DNA from: Sipunculus nudus
Lineage: Eukaryota; Annelida; Sipuncula; Golfingiida; Sipunculidae
Assembly (NCBI GenBank): GCA_026874595.1
Contig: CM049307.1
Coordinates: forward strand, 34,638,862-34,702,861
DNA length: 64,000 nt
Direction of reading: 5' to 3'
The notes below the pieces were generated by a model, which had not been told where the DNA came from, made no database searches, and saw nothing but the letters and a program-made list of their open reading frames with translations. Shown here piece after piece: positions 5,005 to 64,000 of the stretch (its first letter is position 1; the number at the start of each line of letters is the position of its first letter). Both the position numbers and the translations under genes were made by a program.

Positions 5005-5635
5005 TATTAGTGATGCAACACTGGCGTAGCATCCCTGCTGTCAAAGATGGATGAAGAAACCTTTCAATTTTGAGGTCATGGGGTCGAAGGTCACGCCCAC
5101 AAAGCCCAATTCTTGAAAAAGCTTCAGGACCATATAAAGCCAAATAATTTGACAAAAACCTTTCATCTTGCAAATATGGCTTACCCACCCATAAATGAAG
5201 AACCCTGACAATTTTGAGATCACAGGGTCAAAGGTCACGGCCACATGGCCCACTTCTTGAAAAAGCTTGTGGACCCATTTAAAGCCAAACCTTTTGACCA
5301 AAACCTTTCATCTTGCAAATATGGCTCATCCACCCATAGATGAAGAACCCTATAAATTTTGAGGTGACGGGGTCAAAGGTCAGAGCTACAAAGCCCACTT
5401 TTTAAAAAGCTTGTGGACCCATTTTAGGCCAAACAGTTTGACCAACACCTGCCAGTTTCATCTTGCTCATATTGCTCACCCACCCATGGATGAAGAACCC
5501 TATATTTAGTTTTGATGTTACGGGAGCAAAGGTCAAGGCCAGAGAGCTGCCCTCCTCAATTTCACACTTATAATGTAAAACTGCCATTCTAATTATGCCC
5601 CATGCGAGGGGATGCTTCGCTTTCCGGTGCCCTTG
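5005..5635 (+). mobile_element. Family F element with 145-bp core repeats
   Basis: Three to four tandem units of about 145 bp, marked by TTTCATCTTG at 5161, 5306 and 5457 and by GGGTCAAAGGTCA in each. Near the 5' end is GGCGTAGCATCCCTG. Near the 3' end is AGGGGATGCTTCGC, its imperfect reverse complement. The element then stops at GGTGCCCTTG followed by a T run, the same end design as families A to D. Confidence 0.65.
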
Positions 5636-6179: not shown

Positions 6180-6192
6180 TTTGAAATTTTAG

Positions 6193-6978: not shown

Positions 6979-8407
6979 GTATCCGCCAAAACGAAGTTTT
7001 GCGGAAACTATGTTTTTGACTGAATTTCCGGAGAACTCCTCTGAGACTATTGGAGGGATTTTCCCGAAACTTAACCAGTTATCGGGTCACCTGTGAACTG
7101 GTGCCTAACCAATTCATGTTGACCTCTGACCTTCCCTCTCTGCATAGCATCCATTTGTGCGTATGTTTCCACACATAAACCCACATATCTCGGTAACCGT
7201 TTGACCGATGAGGAAAAAAATTTTGTACAAATGTAACCCTTGGATAGCTTTATAACATACACAAACAATGGTGGCGCCACCTGCAACCATGTTTGCACAG
7301 TGTCCATCTGTTCGTCTGCCTTGGGTTAAATCACTCATATCTTTGCAGTGGTTTGACTAATTCACTTGAAATTTGGCATGCGTATACATCCTGGGTAGCT
7401 TTCTTGATTTTATGACAGGTGACGCCACCTACATTCACATTTACACTGCAGACATCCAAGCTCATATCTCGGGAACTGTTTGACCGATCTGGCCAAAATT
7501 TTGCATGTGTATAGATCTCACATAGCTCTTTATGAAACGCAAAACTTGTGGTGCCACCTGCAGCCATTTTTGCACAGCATCCGTCTTTTTGTCTGCCGTC
7601 GGATAAAATCACTCATATCTTGGCAGTGGTTTGACATATCTGCCTAAAATTTTACAGGTTTATACATCCTGGAGAGCTCTCTTGATTTTATGACAGGTGG
7701 CACCACCTACATTCTAGTTTACGCTGCAGACATCCAAGCTTATTTCTCGGGAACTGTTTGACTGATTTGGCCAAAATTTTCATGTGTATAGATCTCACAT
7801 AGCTCTTTATGAAACGCAAAACTGGTGGCGCCACCTGCAGCCATTTTTGCACAGCATCCATCTGTTTGTCTGCTGTGGGATAAAATCACTCATATCTCGG
7901 CAGTGGTTTGACATATCTGCCTAAAATTTTGCAGGTTTATAGATGCTGGACAACTCTCTTGATTTTATGACAGGTTGCGCCACCTACATTCTAGTTTACG
8001 CTGCTGACATCTAAGCTCAAATCTCGAGAACCGTTTGAACGATTGGGCCAAAATTTTGCATGTGTATAGATCTCACATAGCTCTTTATCATACTCAAAAC
8101 TGGTGGCCCCACCTGCAACCATTTTTGCACAACGTCCGTCTGTTTGTCTGCCACGGGCTAAAATCACTCATATACATGTAGTGGTTTGACTTATCTGCCT
8201 TAAATTTTGCATATGTATACTTGGACAGCTTTCTGGATTTTGTGGTAGGTGGCACAACCTTCATACACATTTCGGCTGCAGACATCCATGCTAATATGCA
8301 ACACTTGACTCTATTTCCCCTTGCCACTCAATCCATGCCTCACTTCACCCGTTCCACTCTGATTTTGGCGGATACACGTGGTCGCTTGTCGACTAGCCGT
8401 ATTCTAG
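6979..8407 (+). mobile_element. Family B element, near full length
   Basis: The 5' end is GTATCCGCCAAAAC then GTTTTGCGGAAAC, a hairpin. Four core units of about 275 bp follow, each with TCGGGAACYGTTTGAC-like and GGTGGCGCCACC motifs (palindromes at 7270 and 7824). The 3' end has TTTTGGCGGATAC, the inverted 5' terminus, then GTCGCTTGTCGAC and ATTCTAG. No transposase is encoded, so it is a non-autonomous element. It lies in the IAP intron in the same orientation as the gene. Confidence 0.85.
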
Positions 8408-14846: not shown

Positions 14847-15660
14847 TAACAACCCAGCATCTCAGCTAAACATCCTCTCCTCACGTCAGCATATCCTACT
14901 ATCATCACTTTACATGATTTCAATTTAAAAATACGATCAGAAACAGATTATCAGTCATGGCCATATCTACAAAACTCGTCTATTAGTGACATCAGTAGCC
15001 CAACGAGCATGCATGCAATGCGCAAACTGAAAATATCATATCGTATTATACTGTTAACTCTACACTACTCAAAGCATAAGATACTCTAAATGTCACATGC
15101 ATTACATTAAATTAAGTATCACATACTGTAAGCACCAAATGAATCATTTATAAACTCGATTGTATGTGATCTATGATAAGCATATACTTCACTGATACAT
15201 ACAAGACAATTAAGGCGGTCAAGTGTTACTTCATAAGTTGGTTACGGCTGACACTTAAAACAGTCGCAAAATACTGAAATTCTACACAACTAAGTAACCA
15301 AAATATATATCTGACTATCTTAGGTAAAGTATCTTGGAAAAATCCACAAAGGTGTAACCTGTGCCTACTAACTCTCACTAACTGTTCCAAAATGATATTA
15401 AATAAATAAGGATGTAAATAATAGAAATATTAATAAAAAGTCAAGGTTAAGTTCTGTACACAGTTCACATGAAATTAATGTTTCTCTCAAATACAGCTTT
15501 CCCATAGTTAAAGTTCCCAACTTACTTGCTGAGCTAAACAATCGAAAAAAAAAAAGAATACTACAAGCTAACCTGGTCAAGGTTATGAATATCTCCTAGG
15601 GTTAATTGGTATGTCCTTAAAAATTCATGATTTTTTAGATTTAAAAAAAGTCATGATTTT
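14847..15660. other. Low-copy DNA, no gene seen
   Basis: No gene or repeat family recognised. The left flank of the D element is TCATGATTTTTTAGA then a second TCATGATTTT. The right flank beyond 16907 contains ATCATGATTTTCAA, so the insertion is into locally repetitive AT-rich sequence. Confidence 0.5.
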
Positions 15661-15661
15661 T

Positions 15662-16907
15662 AGCTCAGCTTACTGTAAGTCATCTGAGCTATTGCGATCA
15701 CTCTTTGTCCGTCAGGCCATCCGGCTTTCTGTCCGTTAGCAAGGCACAAATCATAACCACTGGACCTGGAATCTTCTAACTTAACATCTAGAGAGGTCTA
15801 TGAAAAATCTCCTAGGAAACCTGGAATTAGGACTCTGTTACCCATATTCTTCAACCTATGGGGCTCCGAAGTACCCCCCAGAATAATGAAAAATTTGATA
15901 ACAAAGCTCAAATATCTGAACAGCTAATGCAGTGATCACCATGATTCTTTGTATGGATATTGATCATGGAATGTCTCATCAGTTTCTGCAGACTGGTGGC
16001 GCAAACTGTATTTTTCGATTTTTTTTCTCTAATTTTGAGACCTTAAAAGTTGCCGTCATCTGTTAATAGGGCACAAATCTTAATGACTGGACTTAGAATC
16101 TTCTTTTTTGACATGCAGGGAGACCCATGAAAAGTCTCCTTTTAAACCTGGATTTAGGTCTCTGTTACCTAACCCCCCCCCCCCCCCCCCCCAGAATAAT
16201 AGAAATTTTGATACAAAAACTCAAGTGTCTGAACAACTTATGCATTTATCACCATGATTTTTTGCATGGATATTGATCATGGAGTGTTTCATCAGTTTCT
16301 GCAGACTGGTGGCGCCACCTGTATTTTTTCTATTTTTACTATTTTTTATCTATTTTTGAGACCTTAAAAGATGCGGTCATCTATTAACAGGGCACTAATC
16401 GTAACGACTAGACCTAGAATCTTCTTTCTTGACATGCAGGGAGGCCCGTGAAAAGTCTCCTGAAATTAGGTCTTTGTCACCCATATTGTCCGAGCTATGC
16501 ATGGGGCTCAGAAGTACCCCCCCCCCCCCCCCCCAGAATAATTGAAAATTTGACACCAAAGTAGGGCACAAATCATAACCATGGGGCCCAGAATCTTCTA
16601 ACTTGATATCCTGAGAGTTCCTCAAAAGTTCTCCCCAGAAACCTGAAATTGGGTCACAATGACTTAAATTCTCAGAGTTTTTTGGGTATGTTTGAGCACC
16701 CCAGAAATAATACAAAATACACACAAATTGCTAGATTCCTCATGAAAGGCTGGTTGGATTGTTATCAAATTTGTTGTGCTTATGGGTCTTGATGAACTTA
16801 AGCTAATATGCACGAACAATTATGCCACCTATCTAAGTTAGATGTCTGTGCAAGGACATGTTATCAACATGCCAGTCGGCTGAGCGTCATGACCAATGGG
16901 TCACTTG
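15662..16907 (+). mobile_element. Family D element, complete
   Basis: The 5' end is AGCTCAGCTTACTGTAAG then CATCTGAGCT, a hairpin. Four core units follow with GGGCACAAATC-TAAC, AGAATCTTCT, CAGAATAAT and CAGACTGGTGGCGCCACC (palindrome at 16308). Near the 3' end GTCGGCTGAGC inverts the 5' terminus. A GTCATGACC...GGGTCAC end and ACTTG close it at 16907, before a T run. Two C homopolymers (about 22 and 18) lie at equivalent core positions, near 16171 and 16518. Non-coding. Confidence 0.85.
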
Positions 16908-21206: not shown

Positions 21207-22816
21207 AGCTCAGCTGACTAAAAGTCATCTGAGCTATAGTCGTGGTCCATTGTCTGTCATTCGTCAGTCCTGCTGACTATCCGTAAGACAGGCACATTTC
21301 GACACCGTTGGACCTATGAATCCAAAATTGGCATACTTTTAGATGTCCCCAAAATTTCCTACCAAACCAAAAACTGGGTCACTGCGACTTTGTTCCTTCC
21401 AAAATTTAGGAAAAACCTCAAATTTCCATTTAAAACCTATTATCACACTTCAGGACTGCCTAATATCAAAACCACTTATCTGTTTTTCTTAATATTTATC
21501 AGAAGTATTCTAATATATATTTCCTATATACATGCCAGAAATTAAGATTGTTAAGTGTAATTTCTAAATATAAGTTATGGGCTTGAACATATTGGACTTT
21601 GTAAAAAATAAGGAAAAATATTTTCTAACTTAACATGTAAAAATTTGAAGCAAGAGACTTTTTTAAGTATAAAACTTTGTTTAATTAAGATTTAATTGTA
21701 TACCCAAAATTAGAAATGAATTTTGTAAATTTTTTGAGTCATTAGCATAAAAATAAATCTGTACCTTAAATTTTGCCCATAAATTTTGCAACTTTTTTTC
21801 CTATGAGGACTTGATTTATTTTTCACTGCATGTAAACATACCTATTTCATTTGTTCAAATCAGAAATTTAAAAATAAAAGCTTGAAAATTAGGCTAGTTA
21901 CTGAATTTTTCCTTGAGGCTATGTTGTAGCCACTTGCTTTGTCCAGATGCAGGCAACTCACTCCTGGTCACTGGAAGTCAGCTATGCCATGCAGGGTTAC
22001 TGATTTGTTACAGTCACTGGGGGACATTCCCTGCAGTGACAGATGTACATTTATTCTCATATCACCCCCCTGTGTTATGCTGTAATTGTAATTGCTTGCA
22101 CTGTATTTCCTTACAAACATTTGTTCATTATTTTCCTGCCTCAGCAGAATTGGAGATCAGGCTTTGTTTGCCCTGTATGTACATGCAGAAGTGTTGTTAA
22201 TCCCACAATCTCCCCATCCCTGCTGCCATTGATTCCTTTGCACCTATGCACTGGGATATTAGTTTATAATGCAAATGTGTACAATTTTGAGCTCAGCTGA
22301 CTTTAAGTCTTCTGAGCTATTGTCGTGGTCCATTGTCCGTCGTCCGTCTGTCCGGATGTCTGTCCGTAAGACTGGGACGTTTCGACACCCTTGGACCTAC
22401 GAATCTGAAATTCGGCATACAGTTAGATGTCCCCTAAATCTCCTACCATGCCGAAAATTGGGTCAATAGGACTTTGTTCCTCAGAGATATTAAGGAAAAA
22501 CCTCAATTTTTTATTAGAAATATATTTTCACACTTCAGGACTGCCTAATATAAAAACCACTCATCTGGTTTTCTTCATATTTACCATTATATTCCTCTAT
22601 ATAGTACCTATGTACATGCCAGATATTAAGTCAGTATTATATAATTTAAAAAAGTTATTGGCCCAAACATAATGGACTTTGTAAAAAAATCAGGAAGATA
22701 TTTGGTCACTTAAGACCAAAAGTGTTAAAGGTAGGGACTCTTTTCCAGTAATACAACTTTAATTAATCAAAATTTTATTGTATACCAAAAATTAGATCAA
22801 AATCTTTTAAATTTTT

Positions 22817-24725
22817 AGCTCAGCTGACTATAAGTCATCTGAGCTATAGTCGTGGTCCATTGTCCGTCGTCCCTCTGTCTGTCCGTCCGTCCGTCCGTCA
22901 GTCCGTCCGTCCGTCCGTCCATCCGTAGATGTGGCACGTTTTGAAACCGTAAGACTTAGGAATCCAAAATTCAGCATAATGTTAGATGTCCCCAAGATCT
23001 CCTACCAAGCCGAAAACTGGGTCTTTGCGACTTCGTTCCTTTGAGAAATTAAGGAAAAACCTCAATTTTTTATTAAAATCCTATTTTCACACTTCAGGAC
23101 TGCCTTATATCAAAACCACTCATCTGTTTTTCCTCATATTTACCATAAATATTCCTCTATATAGTTCCTATGTACATGCCAGAAATTAAGTCTGTAAAGT
23201 ATAGATTCTTTAAGTTATGGGCCCAAACATAATGGACTTTGTAAAAAATCAGGAAAAATAATAACTCACTTAACATGAAAAATTTTGAAACTAGAGTCAA
23301 TTTTATCAACTATATAACTATGTTTAATTAAGATTCAATTGTTTACCCAAAATTAGATCTGAATTTTGTAAATTTTTTAAGTTATTAGCATAAAAAAAAA
23401 TCAGTACCTTAAATTTTGCCCAACTTTGACCATGGCACATTTTTTTCCTGTAAGCACCATTGATTTAATTTTTACAGCATGTAAACATAAATATTTAGTT
23501 TGTCTAAATCTGAAAATTAAAGCTTGAAAATTAAGCTAGTTATTGATTTTTTTTCTGTAGTCACTTGCTTTGATTACAGATGCAGGGTCCCACTCCAGGT
23601 CACTGGAAGTCAGCTATGCCAGGGTTTCCGATTTGTTTCAGTCACTGGGGGAGATCCCCTGCTGTGACAGGTGTACAGTTATTCTCATATCACCACCCCA
23701 ATCACCCCCCCCCCCCCCCCCCCCCCGGCAAACCCACCAAGTGTTATGCAGTAATTGTTATTGTTTTCACTGTATTTCCTTAATTGTAATGCTGTTTCCA
23801 CTCCGATATGCAAAAACTTTCCTTGAAAAAATAATTCAAGGTGTAATCCAGAAGATGCAATGTTGTGTAATGTAGCATTTTTAAAGAAATCAATTTTCTT
23901 TTAAATGATTTTAACAAATATAAATTAACCCATCAGTATGCTTAAATTATTATAAAATATGAAGCACATTATGGATAAATAAAGACACAATTAAAAATTG
24001 TGAAATCTAAATCAAGTATTATTTTTAGATATTTATTGTTTTTACAGATTTAAAAGATATATTTTTGTGGTAAAAAATAAATAAACATTTGTATGCATGA
24101 TGTGGTGTTATCTGACAAGATTGAGATTTTATGATGATGCAATTGAGAGTTATGAATCAACTTTTATATTCAGATATATATGTTATATTGGAAATGTATA
24201 GAAATATTAACTTAATTTAGAAAATAATTGATGTGATAAAAAATCAGGATTTAATACAAACGTTTGTTCATTATTTTCCTGCCTCAGCAGAATTTGAGAT
24301 CAGGCTTTGTTTGCCCTGTTTTATGTTGTTAATTAGCTATATTTCAACTGTATACATTTCATAAAAAAAATACATATATATTTAATAATATATATTATAC
24401 AAAAAAATAGATTCAATTGAACAAATGTGTAAACTACTGAAATGTCAACAGTTAATCGAAAAAACCAACTAATGATCATGGTAATAGTACAGATCATTTG
24501 TTCACAAACTGCTCACATGCTTTAGTTTAAACATTAGGAAACACATGGTCAGGTCACAAAATATTATTTGCAACAATTTCTTGCTCATCAATACAAACCA
24601 ATCATATAAACCAACCATGGCCTTTATTACCTCTTCCTCTTACACTTTATCTCCATTAGATATTATTTTAGATTTTTACCTTCAAGGTTAACGTCAGCTG
24701 AGCACAGTGACCCATAGGTCCCTTG
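22817..24725 (+). mobile_element. Complete family C element, third level
   Basis: About 1.9 kb from AGCTCAGCTGACTATAAG to CAGTGACCCATAGG then TCCCTTG. The host reads AAATCTTTTAAATTTTT to the left and TTTAAATATTGGCAAAAA to the right. The intact copy at 60711-60745 has AAATCTGTTAAATTTTTTTAAATATTGG, so the insertion lies in a T run with no longer duplication. A CCGT/GTCC tetranucleotide run (22876-22920) and a 22-C run (near 23706) are internal. Confidence 0.85.
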
Positions 24726-25971: not shown

Positions 25972-27163
25972 GTATCCGCCAAAACAGAGTTTAGCGGATA
26001 CTATGTTTTCAGTTGCACACTGCCGCAGCCACCGCCGCCACGTAGGTGTCCGGAGAACTCCTCCGTAACCGCTGGGCGGAATTTTACAAAACCTGGGATT
26101 ATGTTCGGGTCACATGTGAACTACTGCACCCTGATTTTGTTTTGACCTCTGACCTTTCCTCTGCGCTCTGCGTCCGTTTGTGCATCTGTTTCCACACATA
26201 AACCCACATATCTCGGGAACCGTATGACGGATCAGGAAAATTTTTTTAGCACAAATGTAGCCCTTGGAGAGCTTTATAACATACACAAAAAATGGTGGCG
26301 CCACCTGCAACCATGTTTGCACAGTGTGCATCTGTTCGTCTGCCTTGGGTTAAAGCCACTCATATCTCTGCAGTGATTTGACTAATTCAGCTGAAATTTG
26401 GCATGCTTATACATCCTGGATAGCTTTTCTGATTTTATGACAGGTGGCACCACCTACATTCCCGTTTACGCTGCCAACATCCAAGCTCATATCTCGGGAA
26501 CCGTTTGACCGATTTGGCCAAAATTTTGCATGTGTATAGATCTCACATAGCATATCATATGCAAAACTGGTGGCGCCACCTGCAGCCATTTTTGCACAGC
26601 TCCCGTCTGTTTGTCTGCCATGGGATAAAATCACTCATATCTAGGCAGTGGTTTGACATATCTGCCTAAAATTTTGCAGGTTTATACATCCCCGACAGCT
26701 CTCTTGATTTTAAGACAGGTGGCGCCACCTGCATTCTAGTTTATGCAGCAGACATCCAAGCTCATAACTTGGGAACCATTTGACCGATTGGGCCAAAATT
26801 TTGCTTGTGTATAGTTCTCACATAGCTCTTTATCATACTCCACACTGGTGGCGCCACCTTCAACCATTTTTGCACAGCGTCCAACTGTTTTTCTGCCACG
26901 GGCTAAAATCACTCATAAACATTTAGTGGTTTGACTTATATGCCTCAAATTTTGCATATGTATACAACTTGGACAGCTTTCTGGATTTTGTGGTAGGTGG
27001 CGCAACCTACATACACCATTTGGCTGCAGACATCCATGCTAATATGCAACACTTCACTCTATTTCCCCTTGCCACTCAATCCATGCCTCACTTCACCCGT
27101 TCCACTCTGATTTAGGCGGATACACGTAGTCGCTTGTCATCTTATTAGTAACCCGTATTCTAG
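25972..27163 (+). mobile_element. Family B element in family C
   Basis: The 5' hairpin is GTATCCGCCAAAAC with GTTTAGCGGATAC. Three to four core units with GGTGGCGCCACC follow. The 3' end is TTAGGCGGATACACGTAG and GTATTCTAG. Left flank is GATAGTAATT and right flank TTAACACAATGATG. The intact relative at about 61995-62020 reads GATAGTAATTAGCACAATG, so a single TT became present on both sides. Confidence 0.88.
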
Positions 27164-28554
27164 TTAACACAATGATGTTGTTTGTCCCTCATTCAACCAA
27201 CAGTGTGTATACTTTATTTGAAAAGATGTTTTATTTTATCAAATTTACTTTTATTTTATTTTGGTGAATAAGATTAAGCATGTACTGAAAACTCCAAGGT
27301 GCAAAACTTTTTAATAGTGATTCAAGGAATATTCTTTTAGATGCCATGTTGTGGCATTATTTTCTTTTAAATTCAGTTTAAACATTTATGCTTTAAAAAT
27401 AATAAAGTATATGTGTATGCATTATATGACCTAATATGATTGCAACTTTTGCAAAAATTCTAATATTTTAACTTATAGTTTCAGTTTTTTACTCTGTATA
27501 TATAATGATTGCAACTTTTGCAACAATTCTAAAAATTTAATTTATATTTTCAGGTTTTTTTTATTAAAAATTTATAAAACATGTAAATAAAAAAATGATA
27601 AAAACTTCTTAATGGAAAAGTGGATATGCTTAAAAAAATTTGCTTATATATAAATTTAAATGCATTATTTCCTTGAAAGTGAAATAAAGGTATTAGTTCA
27701 TTCCGTCCACTTGCCTGTCCATCTGTAAATTTTCATATGCATCACAGTATCTCAAAACCTTTACTGTTTTTCTTCATGACAGTCTTGTCAGAGTATTAGT
27801 TTGCAATCATATATTTAGAACTTTACTATAACCAAGTAGGAGGGCCCCTTTCCTCTTAGCTTTTCATATTCTTATATAAATGAAAAACATTACAATAGAT
27901 TATTTCTACATCCACCTTCGTGCTGCCCTCACTTTTCCCTTCTCCAAACCCCATCCCAAAGTCACCCTCAGTATTAGCAAGAACAAGATGAATCAGATAT
28001 ATTCATACTTTAATATTTTGTATAACTATTCGTCCATAGGTACCTATGTACATGCCAGAAATTATGTCAATATTGTGCAATATGTAGACATAGTGGGCAT
28101 CACAATAATGTACCTTGTCAAGACTAAGGAGATATTGTGTCATACAGTCACAAATTCATAAATCACTTCATCAGCATAGTTAATCATAACATCATATCTG
28201 TCAAATTGAAAGCTTGCAGACTAACATACACTTTAGATCCTTCAACAAATAGCCTTATCATCATTCTGCTACTGCCTATTACTGCTGTCATTGCATTCAT
28301 ATTTGCTCAAATATATCACAATTTTCAACCCCTTCTAAATAAATAAAAAATAAACCACTATATTTTACTCTTTTAATCCATCAGTCAGGTAATTTTTTTT
28401 TATCATTTACTCACATATTACATTACATCCCTTTATAATAGCCCAACATGTCCATGATATTCATAAGCTTTATCAACTCGATATAGTATCACAGTGGAGA
28501 AACATTTATAGTCCAATGACGATCAGCTGAGCGCCGTGACCCATGGGTCCCTTG
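27164..28554 (+). mobile_element. Second-level family C 3' part
   Basis: Contains GTTTGTCCCTCATTCAACC, GCATAATATGACC-type and GAAAGTGAAATAAAGG landmarks. Two tandem pieces with TGATTGCAACTTTTGCAA occur at 27440 and 27508. A 3' stretch of about 600 bp leads to the terminus at 28554. Confidence 0.7.
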
Positions 28555-35379: not shown

Positions 35380-36508
35380 TCAAAAGTCACATATCCTCTC
35401 AGATTGGTCAGTGTCCCAAAAATTCATTAACACCCCATAACAATATTGGAAAGGTTCCTGGGCAAATTTAAACAACAAGGTTTCAGCTAATTTTGGAGTC
35501 ATGAGGTCAAAGGTCAAGGTCTCAGGACCCACTTCACTAATGACACTGCTTGGATGCATTTTAAGTCTTAAAGTCCAACTTTTCAACACAAACCTTAAAT
35601 CTTGCACATACAGCTTGCCTGCCAATAGCGAGGAAACTTTCAAAGGATTTTGGGTTCACAAGTTCAAAGGCCTAGGTCACAGGGGACATCTGTCCACCAG
35701 TTCATTTCCGGATGATGAATATGGTTTGACATTTAGGGATTTCAATTTAATTATACATAACCCAGAAATAAACTAGAACTATATATTGCTTTTTGGGTCA
35801 ATAGTTCAAAGATCAAGATCTTTGATAGCTTTGTCTTTTATGGAAGACAGGCGGGGCCACCTTTTGTCCTTTTCTTGTTTTTTGGCTGAAATTTTGCATG
35901 TCCTTTGATCTTGGATACCTTCTTCTTGTATTCAAGACTATCTGCAGTCGTTATTGTGTGGCGTCCATCCATACGTTTGATTACAGTGAACATTTCTCAT
36001 ATCTCCAAAGTGTTCAAGGTATTGGTCTGAATTTTGCCATATCCATCGAAGTTGGAAAGTTTTCTCATAAACCAGACAGGTAGCACCACCTACCTTCCCG
36101 TTTTTGTAGAATAAATTAATGCCCTTTTCTGTGGAGTGATTTGCCCTATTTGCCTGAAATTGTGCTTATCAAAAGATCTTGGACTCCTCGCTCTTGTACT
36201 CAAGACTGGTGGTGCCATCTGCAGTTGTTTTCCCATGGCTTCCATCTTTTAATGTGCTTTGTGTGAAATTTGCTAATATCTCTCGAGTGGTTCAAGGTAT
36301 TGGTCTGAAATTTGGCATGTCCATCCATCTAGGAAAATGTTCTCATTTACCAGACAGGTGGTACCACCTACCTTCCCATTTCTGTAGAATAAACTAATAC
36401 TCTTTTTCTTAGGAGTGGTGTGCAGTATTGGTCTGAAACTGAGCATGTCCATAGATCTTGGACTCCTTCATCTTGTACTCAAGACTGGTAGCGCCGTCCA
36501 CCATTTTT
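35380..36508 (+). mobile_element. E/F-related repeat with 280-bp core units
   Basis: 35480-35720 carries F-like AGGTCAAAGGTCAAGG units. An E-type terminus GGGGCCACC..CCTTTTCTTG ends at 35877. After it, units of about 278 bp are marked by CCAGACAGGTAGCACCACC (36074) and CCAGACAGGTGGTACCACC (36352). The last unit is cut at 36508 by a family C insertion and resumes at 38391. Confidence 0.65.
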
Positions 36509-38390
36509 AGCTCAGCTGACTATAAGTCATTTGAGCTATAGTCGTGGTCCATTGGCCGTCGTCTGTCCGTCCGTCTGTCCGTAGATGTGGCACGTTTTGA
36601 AACTGTAACACATAGGAATCCTAAATTCAGCATAATGTTAGATGTCCCCAGAATCTCCTACCAAGCCTAAAACTGGGTCTTTGCGACTTCGTTCCTTTGA
36701 GAAATTAAGGAAAGACCTCAATTTTTTATTAAAAACCTATTTTCACACTTCAGGACTGCCTAATATAAAAAACCACTCATCTGATTTTCCTCATATTTAC
36801 CATAAATATTCCTCTATAAAGTTCCTATTTACATGCCCGAAATTAAGTCTGTTAAGTATAAATTCTTTAAGTTATGGCCCGAACATAATGGACTTTGTAA
36901 AAAATCAGGAAAAATATTTACTCACTTAACATGAAAAATTTTGAAACTAAGAGTCTATTTTCCCAAGTATATAACTATGTTTAATTAAGATTCAATCGTT
37001 TACCCAAAATTAGATCTGAATTTTGTAAATTTTTAAAGTTTTTAGCATAAAAATAAAATAGGTACCTTAAATTTTGCCCAACGTTGACCATGGCACGTTT
37101 TTTTTCCTGTAAGTAACATTGATTTAATTTTCACAGCATGTAAACATAAATATTTAATTTGTTTAAATCTGAAATTTAGAAATAAAAGCTTGAAAATAAG
37201 GCTAGTTATTGATTTTTTTCTTGAGGCTCTATTGTAGTAATTTGTTTTGATTACAGATAACAGATGCAGGGTCCCACTCCAGGTCACTGGAAATCAGCTA
37301 TGCCAGGGTTTCTGATTTGTTATAGTCACTGGGGGAGATCCCCTGCTGTGACAGGTGTATAGTTATTCTCATATCACCCCCCCCCCCCCCCCCCCCCGCA
37401 AACCCAACCCACCAAGTGTTATGCAGTAATTGTTGTTGTATCTCCTTAATTGTAATGCTGTTTCCACTCGGATATGCAAAAACTTTCCTTGAAAAAGTAA
37501 TTCAAGGTGTAATCCAGAAGATGCAATGTTGTGTAATGTATCATTTTTAAAGAAATCAATTTTCTTTCAAATGATTTTAACAAATATAATTGAGCCCATC
37601 AGTATGCTTAAATTTATAAAATATGAAGCATATTATGGATAAATAAAGAAACATTTAAACATTGCGAAATCTAAACCAAGTATTATTTTTAGATATTTAT
37701 TGTTTTGCAGATTTAAAAGATATATTTTTGTGGTAAAAAATAAATAAACATTTGTATGCATGATGTGGTGTTATCTGATAAGATTGAGATTTAGGATGAT
37801 GCAATTGAGAATTATGAATCAACTTTTATATTCAGATATATATGTTATATTGGAAATGTATAGAAATATAAACTTAAATTAAAAAAAAAATTGATATGAT
37901 AAAAAAATGAGGATTTAATACAAACATTTGTTCATTATTTTCCTGCCTCAGCAGAATTTGAGATCAGGCTTTGTTTGCCCCGTTTTATGTTGTTAATTAG
38001 TTATATTTCAACTGTAAACATTTCATAACAAAATACATATATATTTAATAATATATATTATACAAAAAATAAATTCAATTGAACAAATGTGTAAACTACT
38101 GAAATGTCAACAGTCATTTGAAATCAAAAAACCAACTTATGATCATGGTAATAGTACAGGTCATTTGTTCACAAACTGCTCACATGCTTCAGTTTCAACA
38201 TTAGGAAACACATGGTCAGGTCACAAAATATTATTTGCAACAATTTCTTGCTCATCAATACAAACCAATCATATAAACCAACCTTGGCCTTTATTACCTC
38301 TTCCTCTTACACTTTATCTCCATTTGATATTATTTTAGATTTACCGTCAAGGTCAACTTCAGCTGAGCACAGTGACCCATGGGTCCCTTG
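36509..38390 (+). mobile_element. Complete family C element
   Basis: About 1.88 kb from AGCTCAGCTGACTATAAG to AGCTGAGCACAGTGACC, CATGGGTCCCTTG. It has a C run of about 20 at 37377. It is very close in sequence to the copy 22817-24725 over its whole length, including the 3' third (ATTATGGATAAATAAAG, ATATATGTTATATTGG), so the two are recent siblings. Confidence 0.85.
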
Positions 38391-41661: not shown

Positions 41662-42267
41662 CTATCGTGGTCCATTGTCCATCTTCCATCCGTCTGTCCA
41701 TTAGGCATTCACGTTTTGAAATTGTCGGACCTATGAATCCAAAATTCTGCATACTATTAGATGTCCCCAAAATCTCCAACTAAACCAAAAAAACCAGGGC
41801 ACTGCGACTTCGTTCCTTCGAGATATTAAGAAAAACCTCGAATTTCCATTAAAAACTTATTATCACACTTCAGAACTGCCTAATTTCAAAACCACTTATC
41901 TGTTTTCTTAATATGTTCCAGAAGTAATCCCCTATATATTTCCAAAATACATGCCAGAATTTAAGTCCGTTAAGTGTAATTTCTTTAAATTATGGGCCCG
42001 ATCATAATTGTCTTTGTAAAAAATCAGGAAAAATATTTACTCAGTTAACAAGAGAAATTTTGAAACTAGAGACTTTTTTCCCAAGTATATAACTTTGTTA
42101 GCGAACCTGTGAGCTTATGCGATGGTGTGGCGGCGTCCGGCGTCTGTACGTTAACCCATACTATCTTGAAAACGACAAGAATTAGCATCACAAAATCTTA
42201 TGCATAAAATTAGTCATCTAAAAAACTCTATCAGATTTTGCTTGTTTTTTGGCTAACTGCATTTTTT

Positions 42268-44733
42268 AGCTCAGCTGACTATAAGTCATCTGAGCTATAG
42301 TCGTGGTCCTTTGTCCGTCGGCCGTCCGTTAACAGGGCACGTTTTAAAACCGTTGGACCTACGAATCCAAAATTCTGCATACTATTAGATGTCCCAAAAA
42401 TCTCCTACCATACCGAAAATTGGGTCATTAGAACTTCGTTCCTTCGAGATATTAAGGAAAAACCTCCGTTTTCCATAAAAAAGCAATTGTTACACTTCAA
42501 GTCTGCCTAATATCAAAACCACTGATCTGTTTTTGATCATATTTAATATTCATATTCTTCCTCACATTTTCTGTGCACATACCAAAAATTAAGTCAGTAT
42601 TGGGTATTATTTTGAAGTTATAGGCCCAAATATAATGCAATTTTTTAAAAATCAGGAAATATATTTGCTCACTTAACATGAGAATTGCTGAAGCTGAAGA
42701 CTTTTTTTCAGGAATATAACTTTATTTAATCAAGATTCAATTGTTTGCCCAAAATTAGATCTGAATTTTGCAAATTTTTCAAGTTATTAGCATAAATAAA
42801 AAATAAATACCTTAAATTTGTCCAAATTTGGCAGTGGCACGTTTTTTCCCTGTAAGCACTGTTGATTTAATTTTCACAGCATATATACATAAGGGTTTAA
42901 TCTTTTAAAATCTGAAATTTCAAAGAAATTGTTTGAAAAGAGTAGCTTTTATTCAAGTTTTCATACACCATGTCAAGTGTTGTTTATATCTGGCCCACCT
43001 AGTAGTACAGCCTTCACTTGCATTATGTAACCCACCCCAGGCAGCTTGCCTTGACCCAGCTTGGCCATTACTAGCAGGCTTCTCCTCTGCCCTGCACTTA
43101 ACCCCCCCCCCCCCCCCAGCTGGTGCATAAACTAGATGAATGTTATAATTTTCTGTATTTTATTTTATTCTTGGACATGCTACATTTTAGATTTTGTATT
43201 GTACCACCAGGGTTACAATGATTAAAGTGCACATTTAATTGTGTCCACAAAGTGATGTATTGCTATGAAAGTATGGATGTTCATCAGATAAGTAATGCTT
43301 TACTTCAGAAGAGTAAAACTTCACCAGGTGTGAAATTGACTATTAATTCCAGTTATTATTTATAGCTGAGATTGTAATTAGCATAATGATATTGTTTGTC
43401 CCTCGTTCAACCAACAGTGTGTATACTTTATTTGAAAAGATGTTTTTATTTTATAAAATTTACTGAATCTTTTATTTTATTTTGGTGAATAAAATAAAGC
43501 TTGTCCTGAAAACTCCAATGTGCAAAACTTTTCAATAGGAATTCAAGGAATAATTTTGTAGATGCCATGTTGTGGCATTATTTTCTTTTACATTCAGTTT
43601 AAACATTTGATTTAAAAATAATAAAATATATATGTATGCATAATATGACCCAATGTGAGCTACAATCTGGATATATAATGATTGCAACTTAGAATTCTAA
43701 TATTTTAACTTATATTTTCACTTTTATATTACAAATTTATAACACTTGTAAATAAAAAAAATGAATCAGATAAAAACTATTAATGAAAAAAGTGGATATG
43801 CTAAAAAAATAGGCTTATATATAAACTTAAATGCATTATTCCTTTGAAAGTGAAATGAAGGTATTAGTCCATTCTGTCCACTTGCCTGTCCATCTGTAAA
43901 TTTTTCATATGCATCAAAGTATCTCAAAACTTTTACTGTTTTTCTTCATGACAGTCTTGTCAGAGTATTAGTTTGCAATCATATATTGAGAGCTTTACTA
44001 TAACCAAGTAGGAGGGCCCTTTCCTCTTAGCTTCTCATATGCTTATATAAATATAAAACATTACAATAGAATATTTTTCATATTTTGCATTTGCAAAAAT
44101 TTCAAACTTTTGTCGTGACCCATGGGTCCTTTGTTTATATTCTGGATTCTCAACATCATTGTTTGGCTAAAACTGAATAAATACCAGACATGGTGCAAAT
44201 ACTTTGCAAATGTATATGAATATGAATATGAATTTGTACTCCATTATAAAATTTCTTGCATAAGAATGGGAATTCAGGTAAAAATGAAAGTATTTGAATA
44301 CCAGTGCAAATACTTTCAAAATGTATTCATGAATGCATATATTCTATAATATTATTTTAATAATTAGTTCAGTTAGATTTTATTAAAAAAATCATATGAT
44401 TGTCTTATTATTTTTAATAAAAATTATATTGGCACAATATTTGTTATTAAATTTTAATAAATAGTTAAACTCTTTTATTATATGTGCTGCTTATAAGTTA
44501 TATGGCCAAGTCAAAATCTGTGTGACAATAGCACTCCATTTGTTAATAAAATAAATGAAATCAATCCTCCTCCCTGTCTCCAAAAATACTATCAAAATCA
44601 TACATAAGCTAAACACCAACAACTCATAATAAAGCTTATATTTATTACCACACAAAACCAGCATATGCCTGTTTCCCAAATCATATTTTTTATCCTATAT
44701 AACAGCTGAGCTCCATGACCCATGGGTCCCTTG
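42268..44733 (+). mobile_element. Family C element inside family A
   Basis: Runs from AGCTCAGCTGACTATAAG to AACAGCTGAGCTCCATG, CCCATGGGTCCCTTG. A second internal C terminus at about 44113-44133 (GTCGTGACCCATGGGTCC) marks another partial C joined within it. The A host reads AACTGCATTTTTT to the left and TTTAGATTTTATAGGG to the right. Confidence 0.75.
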
Positions 44734-46490
44734 TTTAGATTTTATAGGGAAAAAGCTAAAAAAGCTTAAAAAATCTTCTTCTCCGAATCTGTTCAGCCAA
44801 ATTGTCCAATATTTTAAAGAAATGATTCCTGGAACAATTTCTCTCAAGTTTGTTCGAATGGTTTAAGTTCGGTGATTTTTGGCCGAGTTACAGGAAGTTG
44901 AACTTAGTCATCTGTCCAAAAAAGCATACTAAAATTACAATCTCAGGAATGGCTTGAGCTGTCATCACCAAATTTTATGCCAATGTTGGTCACATGAGTC
45001 ATATCTGAAATTGAGGTATTGGTGGCGCCACCTGTATCGGCCTTTTTTGTACGGGGGTCATCAGTGCCCATATCATACTGACAGCTACAAATAACTTCTT
45101 CTCTGAAATGAAATGGCCAAATTGTTTAATATCGCACAGAAATGATCCTAGGGTAGTGCTTTCTGAAGTTTGTTCAAATGGTCTCAGTTCAGTGACTTTT
45201 GGCTAAGTTATGGGAAGCTGAATTTAGTCATATGCCATAACAGCCTATGTAAGCTAAGTGGCTACAAAAATCTTCTCAAAAACCTCTGGGCCAAATTCTT
45301 AAATCTCAAACATTAATTATCCTTAGATGTTGATAATTCAAGTTTGTTCAAATGGTCTCAGTTCAGTGACTTATGGCTGAGTTATGGGAAGCTGAATTCA
45401 GTCATAACCCATAACAGCCCATGTAAGCTAAGTGGCTACAAAAATCTTCTTCTCAAAAACCACTGGGCCAAATTCTTAAATCTCACACATTAATTATCAT
45501 TAGATGTTGATAATTCAAGTTTGTTCAAATGGTCTCAGTTCAGTGACTTTTGGCTAAGTTATGGGAAGCTGAATTTAGTCATATGCCATAACAGCCCATG
45601 TTAGCTGAGTGGCTACAAAAATCTTCTTCTCAAAAACCACTGGGCCAAATTCTTAAATCTCATACATTAATTATTCTTAGAAGTTGATAATTTCAAGTTT
45701 GTTCAAATGGTTTTGGTTCAATGATTTATGGCTGAGTTATGGGAAGCTGAACTTTGCCATTTTGCTGTATTTTCCCATATGAGTTATAAACCTACAAAAC
45801 GTTTTTTGACTGATGATACTGAGGCCAGTTTGTTTAATATTTTGCAAGAATAATTCCCTGAATCATTCTAATAATATTTGTCTTTTATGGTTCCAAAAAA
45901 TGAATTTTGGCTTAATTATAAAGATTGAATTGAGTCATTTTACCATATATGTTAGCTGTGTGAAGCAGATACATCTAGCCTAGCACCAGTTTATCAGCAT
46001 CCATTACATCATGCCTCTAGACATTTAGATTTCAGAATATCTATGGAAAGTATTGACAAGAATGTTTTTTAAAAGCTTTAAAAAAATGTAGATTTATGAT
46101 ATTACATATCATCTGTACACTATTCATAATTTCTCAGGAATAGCAGGAGCTACCATCTCCAAATTTTATGCAATTATCAGTCACATATCAAATGTTGATG
46201 GATTCAGCTTATTTTTGCTATCTGCATTTACTTAGATTTTACAGGGGAAAAGCTGAAAAAAACTTCTTCTTCTTGTAAAGAGTTCAGCCAAATTGTTCGA
46301 TATTTTACAGAAATGATCCCAGAGGCGAGCCTTCTCAAGTTTGTTCAAATGGTTTGTGTTGAATAAATTTTAGCAGAGTTACATATTAGGCCAAGATTGT
46401 GTATGTTTCTTGAATAGGTTGAGAAACTGCCAACTGTTTCAGATTTGGCAACAGATCAAGAGTTCATTCAGTGCAGCCAGATTTAGGTCA
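44734..46490 (+). repeat. Family A core, about 175-bp tandem units
   Basis: Units share GGCTACAAAAATCTTCT (45260, 45433, 45611), GGGCCAAATTCTTAAATCTC, AAGTTTGTTCAAATGG and TTATGGGAAGCTGAA. A GGTGGCGCCACC palindrome is at 45021. Units become more diverged towards 46400. Confidence 0.8.
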
Positions 46491-46514
46491 AGAGTTCAGT
46501 CAGTGCAGCCAAGC

Positions 46515-46605
46515 ACAAGGCATGTGATCACCTCATGTGCAGCATGTGATCATTTCATGGGTAGCATGTGATCACCTCATGAGTATCCTGTGATCACCTC
46601 ATGTT
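46515..46605 (+). repeat. GTGATCACCTCATG tandem repeat
   Basis: Four units of 20-22 bp with TGTGATCA(C/T)(C/T)TCATG and spacers GTGCAGCA, GGTAGCA and AGTATCC. TGATCA is palindromic. The array lies inside the A body among repeated TTCA(C/G)TCAGTGCAGCCAGG phrases. Confidence 0.85.
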
Positions 46606-47604
46606 CATTCAGTGCAGCCAGGTACAGGTGAAAAGTTCACTCAGTCTAGCCAGGTGCAGGTCAAGAGTTCACTCAGTGCAGTAGCCTGAGCCAGTAATTT
46701 GTCACAGTACACTCGGGGCAACAGCCTTTCTCACCTAAGCCTGGTCAGCCCCGTGCATCAGACTCAAGGTAAGTTTGATGTATTGGCCTGATATTCTGAC
46801 CTGTCTATGTGTCTTTAATGGCTTTCTCGTTCACAAGACAGGTGTTGCCATCTACAATGACTTTTGCAAAGTGTATGTGCCTGCTTAATTCTACGGAAGA
46901 ATTTGATATATCAGCCTGAAATTGGGCATATTTATACATGTCAAATAGCTTTGTCGTATACAAGACTGGTGGTGCCACCTACAATAATTTTTGTGTTGTG
47001 TGCACCCATGCCAGAATTTCAGCAGTGATGTTTGTGTGTTTCTTGTTCAAAATGTTTAGTACTTGCATTGTTCATATATATGAAAAGTAGTGGTTCAGCA
47101 TTGAAGCGTTATACCTGGTGTATATCCATATGCACAGGTTCGCATTAGGCCCGTAGGCCTTGTTTAATTAAGATTAAATTGTATACCAAAAAAATAAGAT
47201 CTGAATTTGGTAAATTTTTTAATTTGTAAGCATAAAAATAAAATCAGTACCTTAAATTTTGCCCAACTTTGACCATGGCATGTTTTTTTCCTGTGAGTAC
47301 TATTGATTTAACTTTTACAGCATGTAAACGTATGTAATAATTTGTTTAAACCTGAAATTTGAAAATAAAAGCTTGAAACTTAGGATAGATTTTTTTCTTG
47401 ATGCTCTATTGTAGTCATTTGCTTTGTCCACATGCAGGCAGCCCACTACTGGTCACTGGAAGTCAGCTATGCCAGGGTTTCTGATTTGTTACAGCCACTG
47501 GGGGAGATCTCCTGCTGTGACATATGTACAGTTGTTCTCATATCACCACCCCAATCCCCCCCCCCCCCCAGCAAACCCAACCCACCAAGTGTTATGCAGT
47601 AATT

Positions 47605-47918
47605 GTATCCGCCAAAACAAAGTTTTGCGGATACTATGTTTTTGTTCAGGTTCTGCGGCCAATTATAATTATATTTTATTATAAAATCACTCATATTTGA
47701 CAGTGGTTTGACTTATCTGCCTAAAATTTTGCAATTGTATACAACTTGGATAACTTTCTGGATTTGTGGCAGGTGGCGCCACCTACATATTTTGGCTGCA
47801 GATGTCCATGCTAATATGCAACACACCTCTCTCTATTTCCCCTTGCCACTCGATCAATCCATGCCTCACTTCACCCGTCCCACTCTGGATAGTCGCTTGT
47901 CGACTACCTGTATTCTAG
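47605..47918 (+). mobile_element. Short family B element, 314 bp
   Basis: An internally deleted B with both ends: GTATCCGCCAAAAC hairpin and GTCGCTTGTCGACTACC, GTATTCTAG. Only one core unit remains (GGCAGGTGGCGCCACC). Left host is TTATGCAGTAATT and right host TTGTTATTGTTTTCACTG. The intact relative at 23740-23770 reads TTATGCAGTAATTGTTATTG, so TT is present on both sides after insertion. Confidence 0.9.
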
Positions 47919-48045
47919 TTGTTATTGTTTTCACTGTAACTCCTTAATTGTATTGCTATTTCAACTCCAGTATACAAAAACTTTCCTTGAAAAAGTAATT
48001 CAAGTAAATCCAGAAGATGCCATGTTGTGTTAATGTAACATTTTT

Positions 48046-50075
48046 AGCTCAGCTGACTGTAAGTTACCTGAGCTATAGCGATCACTCTTTGTCCCTCGTC
48101 CGGCCAACCTGCCGTCTGTCCGTTAACAAGGCACAAATTGTAACCTTTACATCCAGAGATGTCCATGAAAAATCTCCTTGGAAACCTGGAATTAGGTCTC
48201 TATTACCCATATTCTTCAACCTATGGGGCTCTGAAGTACCCCCCAGAATAATGAAAAATTTGATAACTAATGCATTGATGCATTGATCACCATGATTCTT
48301 TGCATGGATATTAATCATGGAGCTTTTCATCAGTTTCTGTAGACTGGTGGCGCCACCTGTATTTCCTTTATTTTTAGCTTAGCTGACTATAAGTCATCTG
48401 AGCTATAGTCGTGTTCCATTGTCTGTCGTCTCTCCAGCTATCCGTCTATCCTTCCGTCTGCCCATAGATGTGGCACGTTTTGAAACCATAAGACCTAGGA
48501 ATCCAAAATTCTGCATAATTTTAGATGTCCCCAAGATCTACCAAGCCGAAAATTGGGTCTTTGCAACTGCGTTCCCTTGAGAAATTAAGGAAAAACCTCA
48601 ATTTTTTATTAAAAACCTATTTTCACACTTCAGGACTGCCTAATATCAAAACCACTCATCTGTTTTTTCTCATATTTGCCATAAATATTCCTCTATATAG
48701 TTCCTATGTACATGCCAGAAATTATGTCTGTATTTTATAATTTAAAAAAGTTATGGGCTCAAACATAATGCATTTTGTAAACAAAACAGGAAAGATATTT
48801 GATCACTTAACACAAAACTTGTTAAAACTAAGGACTTTTTTTCCAGTAATATAACTTAAATTAATCAAAATTAAATTGTATACCCAAAATTAGATCAAAA
48901 TCTTTTAAATTTTTTAAAATAGCAAAAATAAAAAATTGGTACCTTAAATTTTGCCCAACTTTGGCCACGGCACGTTTTTTCCTGTAAGTACAGTGGATTT
49001 AATTTTCACAGCATGTGCACATAAGGATTTAATCTGTTTAAATCTGAAATTTGAAAATAAAAGCTGCAAAATTAGGCTAGTTATTGAATTTTTTTTTTGG
49101 AGGCTCTTGTTGTATTCCCTTACATTGTCAAGCAGTCCACTTTAGGTCATTTAGTGCAGCTCTCTATGCTCCCCAGGCTGTTGGCATAATGTTATGCAAT
49201 CCCATCACTAGGGCAAGCCCTCTCTCGATCCTCTGAGTTGAGCTTGATCAGGCTGTCTGCAGTTAATACCTCAGGGAGCCTTTTTCTCTCTCTCTCTCTC
49301 CCCCCCCCCTCCCCCACCCCATTCTGTTGACAGACCTGTACTATGAACTAGATGAATCTTAAAATTAACATTTTTTTCAGCGACGAGCAGTAACAACGGA
49401 GACCCCTGCCCCCACCCACCCCTTCAATACACAGGACTAATAAACAAGATTAATCTTATACTTTTAATGTTAAATAAATTCTTTTTGATGAGACTTGGAT
49501 AATATTGATTTTTTAAAAGAAAAATATTTCAGAAATTAAATCCTAATATTCAGATGTGATAAAATATTAGGATCTAAGTGCTTACTGACAATATTTAAGA
49601 AGATATAAATACTTTGTAGCATTTCATTCATATCTCTTAAAGTTGGCGGGGCCTAGGTGTGGATAGCCCAATTCTCAAGCTATTGGGCTAAGAAGTACCC
49701 CCCAGAATAATAGAAAATTTGATACCAAACTAGGTCACAAATCATAACCATGGGGCCCAGAATCTTCTAATTTGACATCCTGAGAGTTCCCCAAAAGTTC
49801 TCCCAAAAAACCTGAAATTGGGTCACATTGACCTATATTCTCAGAGTTTTGGGGTATGTTTGAGGACCCCAGAAATAATGCAAAATACACACAAATTGCC
49901 AGATTTCTCATGAAAGGCTGGTTGGATTGTCATCAAATTTGTTGTGCTTATGGGTCTTGATAAACTTAAGCTAATATGCAAGAACAATGATGCCACCTAT
50001 CGTAATTGGTTTTCTGTGCAAGGACATATTATCAACATGTCAGTTGGCTAAGCGTCATGACCCATGGGTCACTTG
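48046..50075 (+). mobile_element. Family D element with nested C piece
   Basis: Starts AGCTCAGCTGACTGTAAG, GAGCTATAGCGATCAC and ends GTTGGCTAAGCGTCATG, CCCATGGGTCACTTG. Host family C continues from AATGTAACATTTTT to AAAAGAAATCAATTTAC, matching intact 23866-23890. A family C head with body (48376 to about 49655) is inserted into its core, with no C 3' terminus. Confidence 0.78.
48376..49655 (+). mobile_element. Family C element, 3'-truncated, inside D
   Basis: AGCTTAGCTGACTATAAG starts the copy. It reaches the GAGGCTCTTGTTGTATTCC, CCCCAGGCTGTTGG and AAGTTGGCGGGGCCTAG landmarks, with a CT/C run at 49282-49318, then passes into D core (AAGAAGTACCCCCCAG). Confidence 0.75.
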
Positions 50076-57907: not shown

Positions 57908-59378
57908 GTATCCGCCAAAACGAAGTTTTGCGGATACTATGTGTTTGACCGGGTTCCGCCGCCGCCGCTGCCGCTGCGTTCGTTTCCAGAGAACTCCTCT
58001 GAGACTACTGGACAGATTTTTCCGAAACTTACACAAATTATCGGGTCACATGTGAACTGGTGCCTAACCAAGTGACCTTGACCTCTGACCTTTCGTCTCT
58101 GCCCAGCGTCCGTTTGTGCGTCTGTTTACACACATAAACCCATATATCTCGGGAACCGTTTGACGGATCCGGAAAACATTTTTACACAAATGTAGCCCTG
58201 GGATAGCTTTATAACATACACAACAAAAGGTGGCGCCACCTGCAACCATGTTTGCACAGTGTCCATCTGTTCATCTGCCTGGGGATAAAATCACTCATAT
58301 CTCTGCAGTGGTTTGACTAATTCACCTAAAATTTGGCATGCATATACATCCTAGATAGCTTTCTCAATTTTATGACAGGTGGCGCCACCTACATTCACGT
58401 TAACGCTCCACACATAAACCCATATATCTCGGGAACCGTTTGACCGATCCGGAAAAAAATTTTACACAAATGTAGCCCTGGGATAGCTTTATAACATACA
58501 CAACACAAGGTGGCGCCACCTGCAACCATGTTTGCACGGTGTCCATTTGTTCATCTGCCTGGGGTTTAAAATCACTCATATCTCTGCAGTGGTTTGACTA
58601 ATTCACCTAAAAATCGGCATGCATATACATCCTAGATAGCTTTCTTGATTTTATGACAGGTGGCGCCACCTACATTCACATTAACACTCCACACATAAAC
58701 CCATATATCTCGGGAACCGTTTGACCGATCCGGAAAAAATTTTTACACAAATGTAGCCCTGGGATAGCTTTATAACATACACAACAAAAGATGGCGCCAC
58801 CTGCAACCATGTTTGCACAGTGTCCATTTGTTCATCTGCCTGGGGTTAAAATCACTCATATCTCTGCAGTGGTTTGACTAATTCACCTAAAATTCGGCAT
58901 GTGTATACATCCTAGATAGCTTTCTTGATTTTATGACAGGTGGCGCCACCTACATTCACGTTAACGCTGCAGGAATCCAAGCTCATATCACGGGAACCGT
59001 TTGACCGATCCGGAAAACATTTTTACACAAATGTAGCCCTGGGATAGCTTTATAACATTCACAACAAAAGGTGGCGCCACCTGCAACCATGTTTGCACAG
59101 CGTCCATCTGTTTGTCTGCTGTGGGATAAAATCACTCATATCTATGCAGTGGTTGACTTTTCCACATGAAATTTTGCATGTGTATATATCTTGGATAGTT
59201 TCTTGTTCAAATAACAGGTGGCGCCACCTACAATCATGTTTATGTGGCAGAGATCCATTCTAATATTTAACACATGTAACTCTTTATCCCCTTGCCACTC
59301 AATCCATGCCTCACTTCACCTGTCCTTCTCTGATTTTGGCGGATACACGTAGTCGCTTGTCGACTACCCGTATTCAAG
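57908..59378 (+). mobile_element. Family B element, full length, four core units
   Basis: GTATCCGCCAAAAC pairs with GTTTTGCGGATAC at the 5' end. Four units of 280-282 bp follow (CACATAAACC at 58131, 58411 and 58692; fourth unit from 58970). They are nearly identical to each other, so homogenised or recently amplified. The 3' end is TTTTGGCGGATAC, the perfect hairpin GTAGTCG-CTTGT-CGACTAC and GTATTCAAG, with CAAG in place of CTAG. Confidence 0.9.
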
Positions 59379-62737: not shown

Positions 62738-63376
62738 CATAACTTAGCCAAAAAATCACTGAACTGAAACTATTTGAACAAACTTCAGAAAGCACTACCC
62801 AGGGATCATTTCCGTGCGATATTTAACAATTTGGCCTTATCATTTCAGAGAAGAAGTTATTTGTAGCTATCAGTATGATACTGGCACTGATGACCCCCGT
62901 ACAAAAAAGGCCGATGCAGGTGGCGCCACCAATACCTCAATTTCAGATATGACTCATGTGACCAACATTGGCATAAAATTTGGTGATGATAGCTCAAGCC
63001 GTTTCTGAGATTGTAATTTTAGTATGCTTTTTTGGACATATGACTAAGTTCAACTTCCTGTAACTCGGCCAAAAATCACCAAACTTAAACCATTCGAACA
63101 AACTTGAGAGAGATTGTTCCAGGAATCATTTCTGTAAAATATTGGACAATTTGGCTGAACAGATTCGGAGAAGAAGATTTTTTAAGCTTTTTTAGCTTTT
63201 TCCTTATAAAATCTAAGAAAATGCAGTTAGTCAAAAAATAAGAAAAATCCGATAGAGTTTTTTAGATGACAAATTTAATGCAAAAAATTTAGTGATGCTA
63301 ATTCTTGCCGTTTTCAAGATAGTATGGGTTAACCTACAGACAACGCCACACCATAGCATAAGCTCACAGGTTCGCT
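62738..63376 (-). mobile_element. Family A fragment, reversed
   Basis: Reverse complement of the A head and first core units. The A terminus AGCGAACCTGTGAGC reads inward from 63376. GGTGGCGCCACC lies at 62919, and CTGTAACTCGGCC matches the inverse of 44875-44900. The A 3' end is missing. Confidence 0.82.
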
Positions 63377-63645
63377 AAAAAGTAGTTATTCCATACAAAT
63401 GGGATGTGGACCAGAGTAAAACGGGTCCTGACCTTAACTGGGAGTGTTGCACAAAACTTCTGGTTTAACCTATTATACTGTCACAGGGTCATTGTTGTGA
63501 ATGCAATGCTCCCATCACATAACAAACCCACATGGTAATAGAATGACCTCAGATACTGGCAGTAACCACCATCCCAGTCCCCCCCCCCCCCATCCCCCTT
63601 TAAATTTTGCTAAAATATTCAATTTTGTTCCCAAGCCAGTCACTG
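63377..63645 (+). repeat. Second copy of the 13208-13540 repeat
   Basis: CCATACAAATGGGATGTGG through GTTCCCAAGCCAGTCACTG. A C run at 63580 expands the CCTTCCCCCTCTCCC segment of the left copy. Confidence 0.8.
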
Positions 63646-64000
63646 ATTGTATCCTTATCGGGGATAGTATGGTTAGGCATGGTAGCACCAGAGCTGTAGA
63701 GATTTCTTTCAGGCGAGATAACTCAAAAAATATTTCATGGATCTCTACCGAACTTGCACGTGCATAGATATGGGTGAGATGCTGAAGCCTATTTAATATG
63801 GGGTCATGACCTTTACTGGGATAGTGACCTTGACCTTGACAAACTCCATTTTGGGGGGGAAAAATCAAGTTGCCAAAAGATCTTGGATAGTGTTGTCATG
63901 TACCGGAAACTGGTGGCGCCATTTATTATCCTTTTCCTGTTTTTGTGTCGTTTTATACACCCATCATTGCCACTTGACAGTACTGTGAGCATTATAAGTA
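63646..64000 (+). mobile_element. Family E element with 5' hairpin
   Basis: Starts GTATCCTTATCGGGGATAG, a hairpin like that of B, then TGGATCTCTACCGAAC, GGTCATGACCTTTACTGG and AACTGGTGGCGCC. A T-rich end TATCCTTTTCCTG follows near 63943. The last 32 bases repeat 8448-8480. The window ends inside the repeat. Confidence 0.65.

Follow-up and report, generated by a model that had tools for sequence, protein, structure and literature searches.

What kind of transposon fills a 64,000-nucleotide stretch of the genome of the sipunculan annelid Sipunculus nudus (contig CM049307.1, positions 34,638,862 to 34,702,861 of the forward strand, in assembly GCA_026874595.1 of 1.43 Gb), and does a single machinery move all of it? 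This stretch, the window hereafter, has a GC content of 35% and is packed with repeat copies; in an initial annotation, made from its letters alone, five families (A, B, C, D and F) were described as sharing one end architecture and a TT target and were proposed to depend on one replication machinery. The families are very probably HINEs, that is, protein-less derivatives of Helentrons (rolling-circle transposons whose protein joins Rep, a PIF1 helicase and an endonuclease), and each end type appears to be served mainly by its own Rep lineage.

The assignment to the Helentron class, already suggested in that annotation and upheld here, follows from D-type ends that bound a Rep-helicase-endonuclease element and from a C-type 3' end that lies behind a related Rep gene. 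Genome-wide, 143 matches to the Pfam Helitron_like_N model were obtained, with 150 of 195 candidates scored, and 20 of these Rep loci were fetched: 11 of lineage G1, four D-type, one C-type, two of lineage G3, and two (L022 and L023) that match none of the other Rep loci among the 20. The D-type loci L016 and L026, both extended upstream, are similar to each other between the outer limits TTAGCTCAGCTGACTGAAAGTCA and CCCATGGGTCACTTG followed by TT, which are the D-type ends, over spans of 14.9 and 15.9 kb. The flanks of the two copies differ and are T-rich, with a T-run before and TT after the element in both, and the last 7 kb are 98% identical. The L016 frame encodes a 2342-amino-acid protein with Herpes_teg_N, DUF6570, Helitron_like_N and PIF1 helicase (PF05970, E 6.5e-23) domains; its two-tyrosine motif is YIVSYVSK, and its Rep motif 2, FYRVEFQQRGSPHIH, has the GSPH form (Q.RGSPH.H) that is described as diagnostic of Helentrons (PMC4067079). 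A looser two-tyrosine pattern (AYAC/ANAC..Y...Y..K) is present in 12 of the 15 Rep frames, the other three being partial; a stricter pattern (Y..KY..K) is in none of the 15. The protein of L017, a locus 90% identical to L016 whose ends were not seen, passes one of two endonuclease models (PF14529, 32.7 bits against a cut-off of 27.4). D HINEs have an autonomous Rep-helicase partner, probably with an endonuclease, that has D-type ends in the same genome.

For family C, locus L020 contains a 1658-amino-acid Rep-PIF1 frame with a C-type 3' end downstream that matches the window C end at 28523-28557 in 35 of 35 bases. A GDFNIDIS piece in the frames downstream is, we assume, endonuclease-like. The L020 lineage is the probable partner of C, and the ends held in common with an autonomous Helentron are both ends of D and the 3' end of C.

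Several additional features of these proteins and loci were observed. The Herpes_teg_N domain is present in the D-type proteins of both L016 (-) and L017 (+), and the two G1 proteins that were scanned, those of L010 (-) and L013 (+), contain an OTU domain. The N-terminal parts of the L016 and L020 frames contain arrays of basic repeats resembling 21-amino-acid units; a similar region in L010 corresponds to STPRs, just below the Pfam cut-off. Both D-type copies contain the same nested B-family element (L029:3637-4987, +, and L030, the same insertion in L016), and this B element was thus copied along with its host.

As expected for the class, the autonomous Helentron protein would act at both ends of an element: Rep would nick at the ends, the helicase would unwind the DNA, and one strand would be copied and joined at TT. 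Non-autonomous copies would retain the ends and shed the gene, as exemplified by the D copy at 15657-16909 in the window, which is similar to L026 over its 5' 905 bases (77%) and its last 34 bases (85%).

The end sequences quoted in the initial annotation are all present in the window. Family A starts with TTAGCGAACCTGTG and has CACAGGTTCGC on its 3' side, followed by a palindrome and CTTG. Family B starts with the self-folding GTATCCGCCAAAA and has TTTTGGCGGATAC, then a hairpin and CTAG (CAAG in one copy), and families C and D start with the self-folding TTAGCTCAGCTGAC and have CAGCTGAGC, then a palindrome and CTTG. The inverted match between the two ends was measured as the longest exact run shared by the first 40 and the last 60 bases, with 5000 random window pairs as the background, in which 8 nt were reached by 275 pairs, 10 nt by 25, 11 nt by 12 and 13 nt by two. 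The match is 11 nt in both A copies, 13 nt in two of the four B copies (9 and 5 nt in the remaining two), 11 nt, and so at least 11 bp, in both autonomous D-type elements (GCTCAGCTGAC) and 10 nt in both G3 copies. Matches as long as those of A, B and D seldom occur in random pairs, whereas one as long as that of F (8 nt exact, or 12 nt with one mismatch by eye) is not rare there; the claim that the 5' terminal bases recur inverted before the 3' end accordingly holds for A to D and is weak for F.

Ends were surveyed in the window and loci L009-L045 (330 kb), with rows that are partly non-independent, some of them stemming from one insertion event. The letters CTTG or CTAG, which were part of the search pattern, close 30 of the 34 3' ends, and TT, which was not, follows directly in 30 of the 34 (A 3/4, B 7/8, C/D 17/19, F 1/1, G3 2/2), compared to a background TT frequency of 0.12 in the window; the one B row without TT is misregistered, the actual end being CTAG followed by TT at 27163. 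At the 5' side, after exclusion of 33 antisense or chance rows (A 1, B 12, C/D 16, F 2, G3 2), TT directly precedes 27 of 31 sense-strand ends (A 5/5, B 6/6, C/D 14/17, G3 2/2, F 0/1). The proposed termination at CTTG or CTAG against T holds for A to D, as does the proposed TT target, which is missing at the proposed 5' end of F. Strong 5' hairpins, which had not been listed before, are present in B, D and G3 (z scores from -3.4 to -6.4), and the same fold test reveals none in A or F. Family A and family B appear to be HINEs on the strength of this anatomy, given that they combine subterminal repeats (intact in 2/2 A and 2/4 B copies), a 3' palindrome (fold z below -2 in 1/2 and 2/4 copies, respectively) and TT insertion.

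Several results weigh against the HINE assignment. The D-type elements contain a second copy of the 5'-end-like sequence 0.7-1.1 kb inside the outer one, so that the functional 5' end is not certain, and the endonuclease match of L016 falls below the Pfam cut-off (20.5 of 24.5 bits). The 11.8 kb that precede the L020 frame contain no C-type 5' end. All 13 window C/D ends, at 58-77% identity to autonomous ends, miss the rule of 80% over the last 60 bases, a rule that, as given in PMC4067079, defines subfamilies and not the class. When the last 45 bases were compared with shuffled sequences, the 3' fold was no better than the shuffles in D (z 0.2 and 0.5, with a predicted stem of 5 bp), in one of the two A copies (-0.2), in two of the four B copies (-0.8 and 0.4) and in F (0.7), and reached z scores from -2.0 to -2.6 in both G3 copies, one A copy and two B copies; of the 3' hairpin claimed for A to D, the palindromes are visible in the sequence but the fold energy is unremarkable for D, one A copy and two B copies. 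Finally, the suggested search for an autonomous Rep-helicase element with matching ends succeeded for D and for the 3' end of C but, at the 20 Rep loci covered (of 143 matches, and with G1 ends lying beyond the stretches scanned), yielded none for A, B or F. In similarity comparisons with these loci, A, B and F gave nothing except the B copy nested in D-type elements, B repeats inside two A queries and the A-like copy that holds L027.

The insertions themselves can be followed in uninterrupted paralogous copies of the target (empty sites) within the window, which were found for one of the two A elements tried, all four B elements, two of three C elements (the match of the third is poor at the junction) and one of two D elements, and which thus support the ends of these four families; two further trial pairings of ends, 53010-57773 and 9015-9301, gave no usable empty site. 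The elements recognized in the window are the following, with percentages giving identity to the empty site unless stated otherwise.

42098..47162 (+), element of family A that interrupts a C-family copy (whose flanks run to 42097 and resume at 47163); C copies lacking the insertion, best 36899-37057, 88%
42266..44733 (+), family C element lying within the A element 42098..47162; uninterrupted A copy 63297-63138 (-), 93%
1772..2975 (+), family A element that contains a B 3' end at 2804; recognized by its ends and an 11-nt inverted match, empty site not found
62751..63378 (-), 5' part of a family A copy, the empty site for the nested C element
3810..3839 (+), family A 3' end, CTTG followed by TTTT; from the end search
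6979..8407 (+), family B element with tandem repeats of about 277 bp; one empty site, 63863-64000, 83%
25972..27163 (+), family B element with tandem repeats of about 275 bp; empty site 61936-62093, 95%
47605..47918 (+), short family B element that has lost the 3' inverted repeat (inverted match 5 nt); empty site 23672-23834, 86%
57908..59378 (+), family B element ending in CAAG, tandem repeats of 280 bp; empty site 39380-39537, 98%
22815..24725 (+), family C element with a GTCC microsatellite, inside another C copy; 19 uninterrupted copies, best 60648-60806, 96%
36507..38390 (+), family C element whose end pairing is inferred, similar to L020 over the 3' 149 bp (79%) and the last 41 bp (90%); empty-site match poor
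28537..28554 (+), family C 3' end, within the 35 bases (28523-28557) identical to the L020 end
15660..16907 (+), family D element derived by deletion from the L016/L026 type; empty site not found
48044..50075 (+), family D element that contains a C 5' end at 48374; two empty sites, 23800-23960 (86%) and 37473-37624 (88%)
5023..5635 (+), the single family F copy, which carries a 145-bp tandem array; CTTG followed by TTTT at the 3' end, 5' end not fixed

Behind each of the C 5' ends at 22815 and 53010 there is a GTCC array.

In most cases, the filled site contains two T more than the empty site, which a duplication of TT and T residues carried by the element explain equally well; Helentron ends have been described as bordering on T-runs of variable number, with the target site unmodified (PMC4067079). 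The two extra T could suggest that A and B are cut-and-paste miniature inverted-repeat transposable elements (MITEs) with a TT target duplication that are Helentron-like in appearance only. We consider this highly improbable and have dropped it: the inverted repeats are subterminal and asymmetric, the 3' copy lying inside the end and being followed by the palindrome and CTTG or CTAG, and the same T pattern is seen in C and D, the latter with a Rep partner.

The status of F is less clear, and its classification as a HINE is tentative. It is present as a single copy, its 8-nt exact match is of a length reached by 275 of 5000 random pairs, there is no TT at the proposed start, and no empty site was found for either of two trial boundaries, so that F might be a tandem array whose inverted match arose by chance, and not a member of the group. 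Although this is a serious possibility, we regard it as the less probable one, because the 3' end, CTTG followed by TTTT, and the 145-bp tandem array between the ends are HINE-like. A partly similar place at 4237-4256 (-) hints that the 5' end of F may lie further upstream than the proposed start.

Do all these HINEs depend on one protein? The description of the five families as otherwise unrelated needs qualification: C and D are related, which reduces the end types to four or fewer, and in the final 60 bases A is 58-62% identical to D and F is 61% identical to G3, where the 99th percentile of random pairs is 58.5%. Both ends of G3 (L027 and L028) were mapped, the self-folding TTATGCCCCCGC and GCGGGGGCATTC, the latter followed by a hairpin and CATCTAG before TTT; the G3 frames are split: L027, which is inserted in an A-like copy, has one frame for Rep and another for PIF1, and L028 has the endonuclease in its own frame. 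Among best protein matches, G3 (first L027 frame only) shows 30-33% identity to D and C, G1 shows 31-33% to D and C and 38-42% to G3, and D is 62% identical to C. Over the last 34 bases, D and C share 79-82% identity, and neither exceeds 50% identity to G3. The three Rep lineages D, C and G3 therefore come with three sets of ends, and in the resolved cases the ends go with the Rep lineage; this comparison comprises three cases, a small sample that is compatible with loose recognition of foreign ends. The G1 copies are alike over more than 10 kb, and the stretches end before the G1 elements do. No A, B, C, D or F ends were found in the six extended G1 loci, where a single G3-like match with five mismatches is attributable to chance, or in the other five, scanned at 9.9 kb.

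A single Helentron protein that responds to how the ends are laid out and not to their sequence could account for the layout common to A to D and G3, and the weak similarity between the ends of A and D is in line with it. With the Rep genes of D, C and G3 each having their own ends, this is unlikely, and the single replication machinery envisaged in the initial annotation gives way to several lineages. To a narrower version, in which A, B and F lack a dedicated Rep and depend on Helentron proteins that recognize the folded layout and not the sequence, such that unrelated DNA could turn mobile by gaining this layout, we assign little probability, slightly less than to a single protein for all. 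The preferred reading remains that of HINEs served mainly by their respective Rep lineages.

Two other features of the window are outside these families. A 31-bp tandem array with an inverted copy downstream occupies positions 1-874 and 1366-1493, and an open frame of 140 amino acids at 6185-6604 (+), with a UBA_BIRC2-3 match below the cut-off (26.3 of 27.2 bits), is possibly a host exon of an inhibitor-of-apoptosis gene.

Beyond the initial annotation, the present analysis identifies an autonomous partner of D and a probable partner of C, and replaces one machine by several lineages. Abundant tandem-repeat elements are thereby paired, through their matching ends, with long open Rep-helicase-endonuclease frames, which provides matched donor and enzyme candidates for asking which ends a Helentron protein needs. 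The families themselves are mostly ordinary and have the same layout as the published Cg_HINE elements of the oyster Crassostrea gigas, of which the available part of PMC7492417 describes 11, including families unrelated in sequence, with GTCC-like microsatellites and TT sites. Shared with Cg_HINE are the 5' subterminal repeat with its own inverted copy, the GTCC-like microsatellite, the central tandem repeats, the 3' subterminal repeat with a palindrome, the TT sites and the presence of sequence-unrelated families in one genome; the tandem units are 145-280 bp here and about 140-180 bp in the oyster, A lacks the 5' hairpin, and the comparison concerns the layout (PMC7492417). With the Helentrons and HINEs of mite, Culex and Drosophila, as far as these are presented in the accessible text of PMC4067079, the elements share the Rep-PIF1-endonuclease protein, GSPH in the Rep motif, subterminal repeats, T-rich sites and non-autonomous deletion derivatives, although the identity of the last 60 bases to the partners is lower here. 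Helentrons are named only in the reference list in the available portion of PMC10294476. Tegument-type (VTD) and OTU deubiquitinase domains have been described in Helentrons, with molluscs among the hosts, and, by Pfam match, the Herpes_teg_N domain of the D-type proteins and the OTU domain of the two scanned G1 proteins conform to the domains described in this source (PMC9741609, in part).

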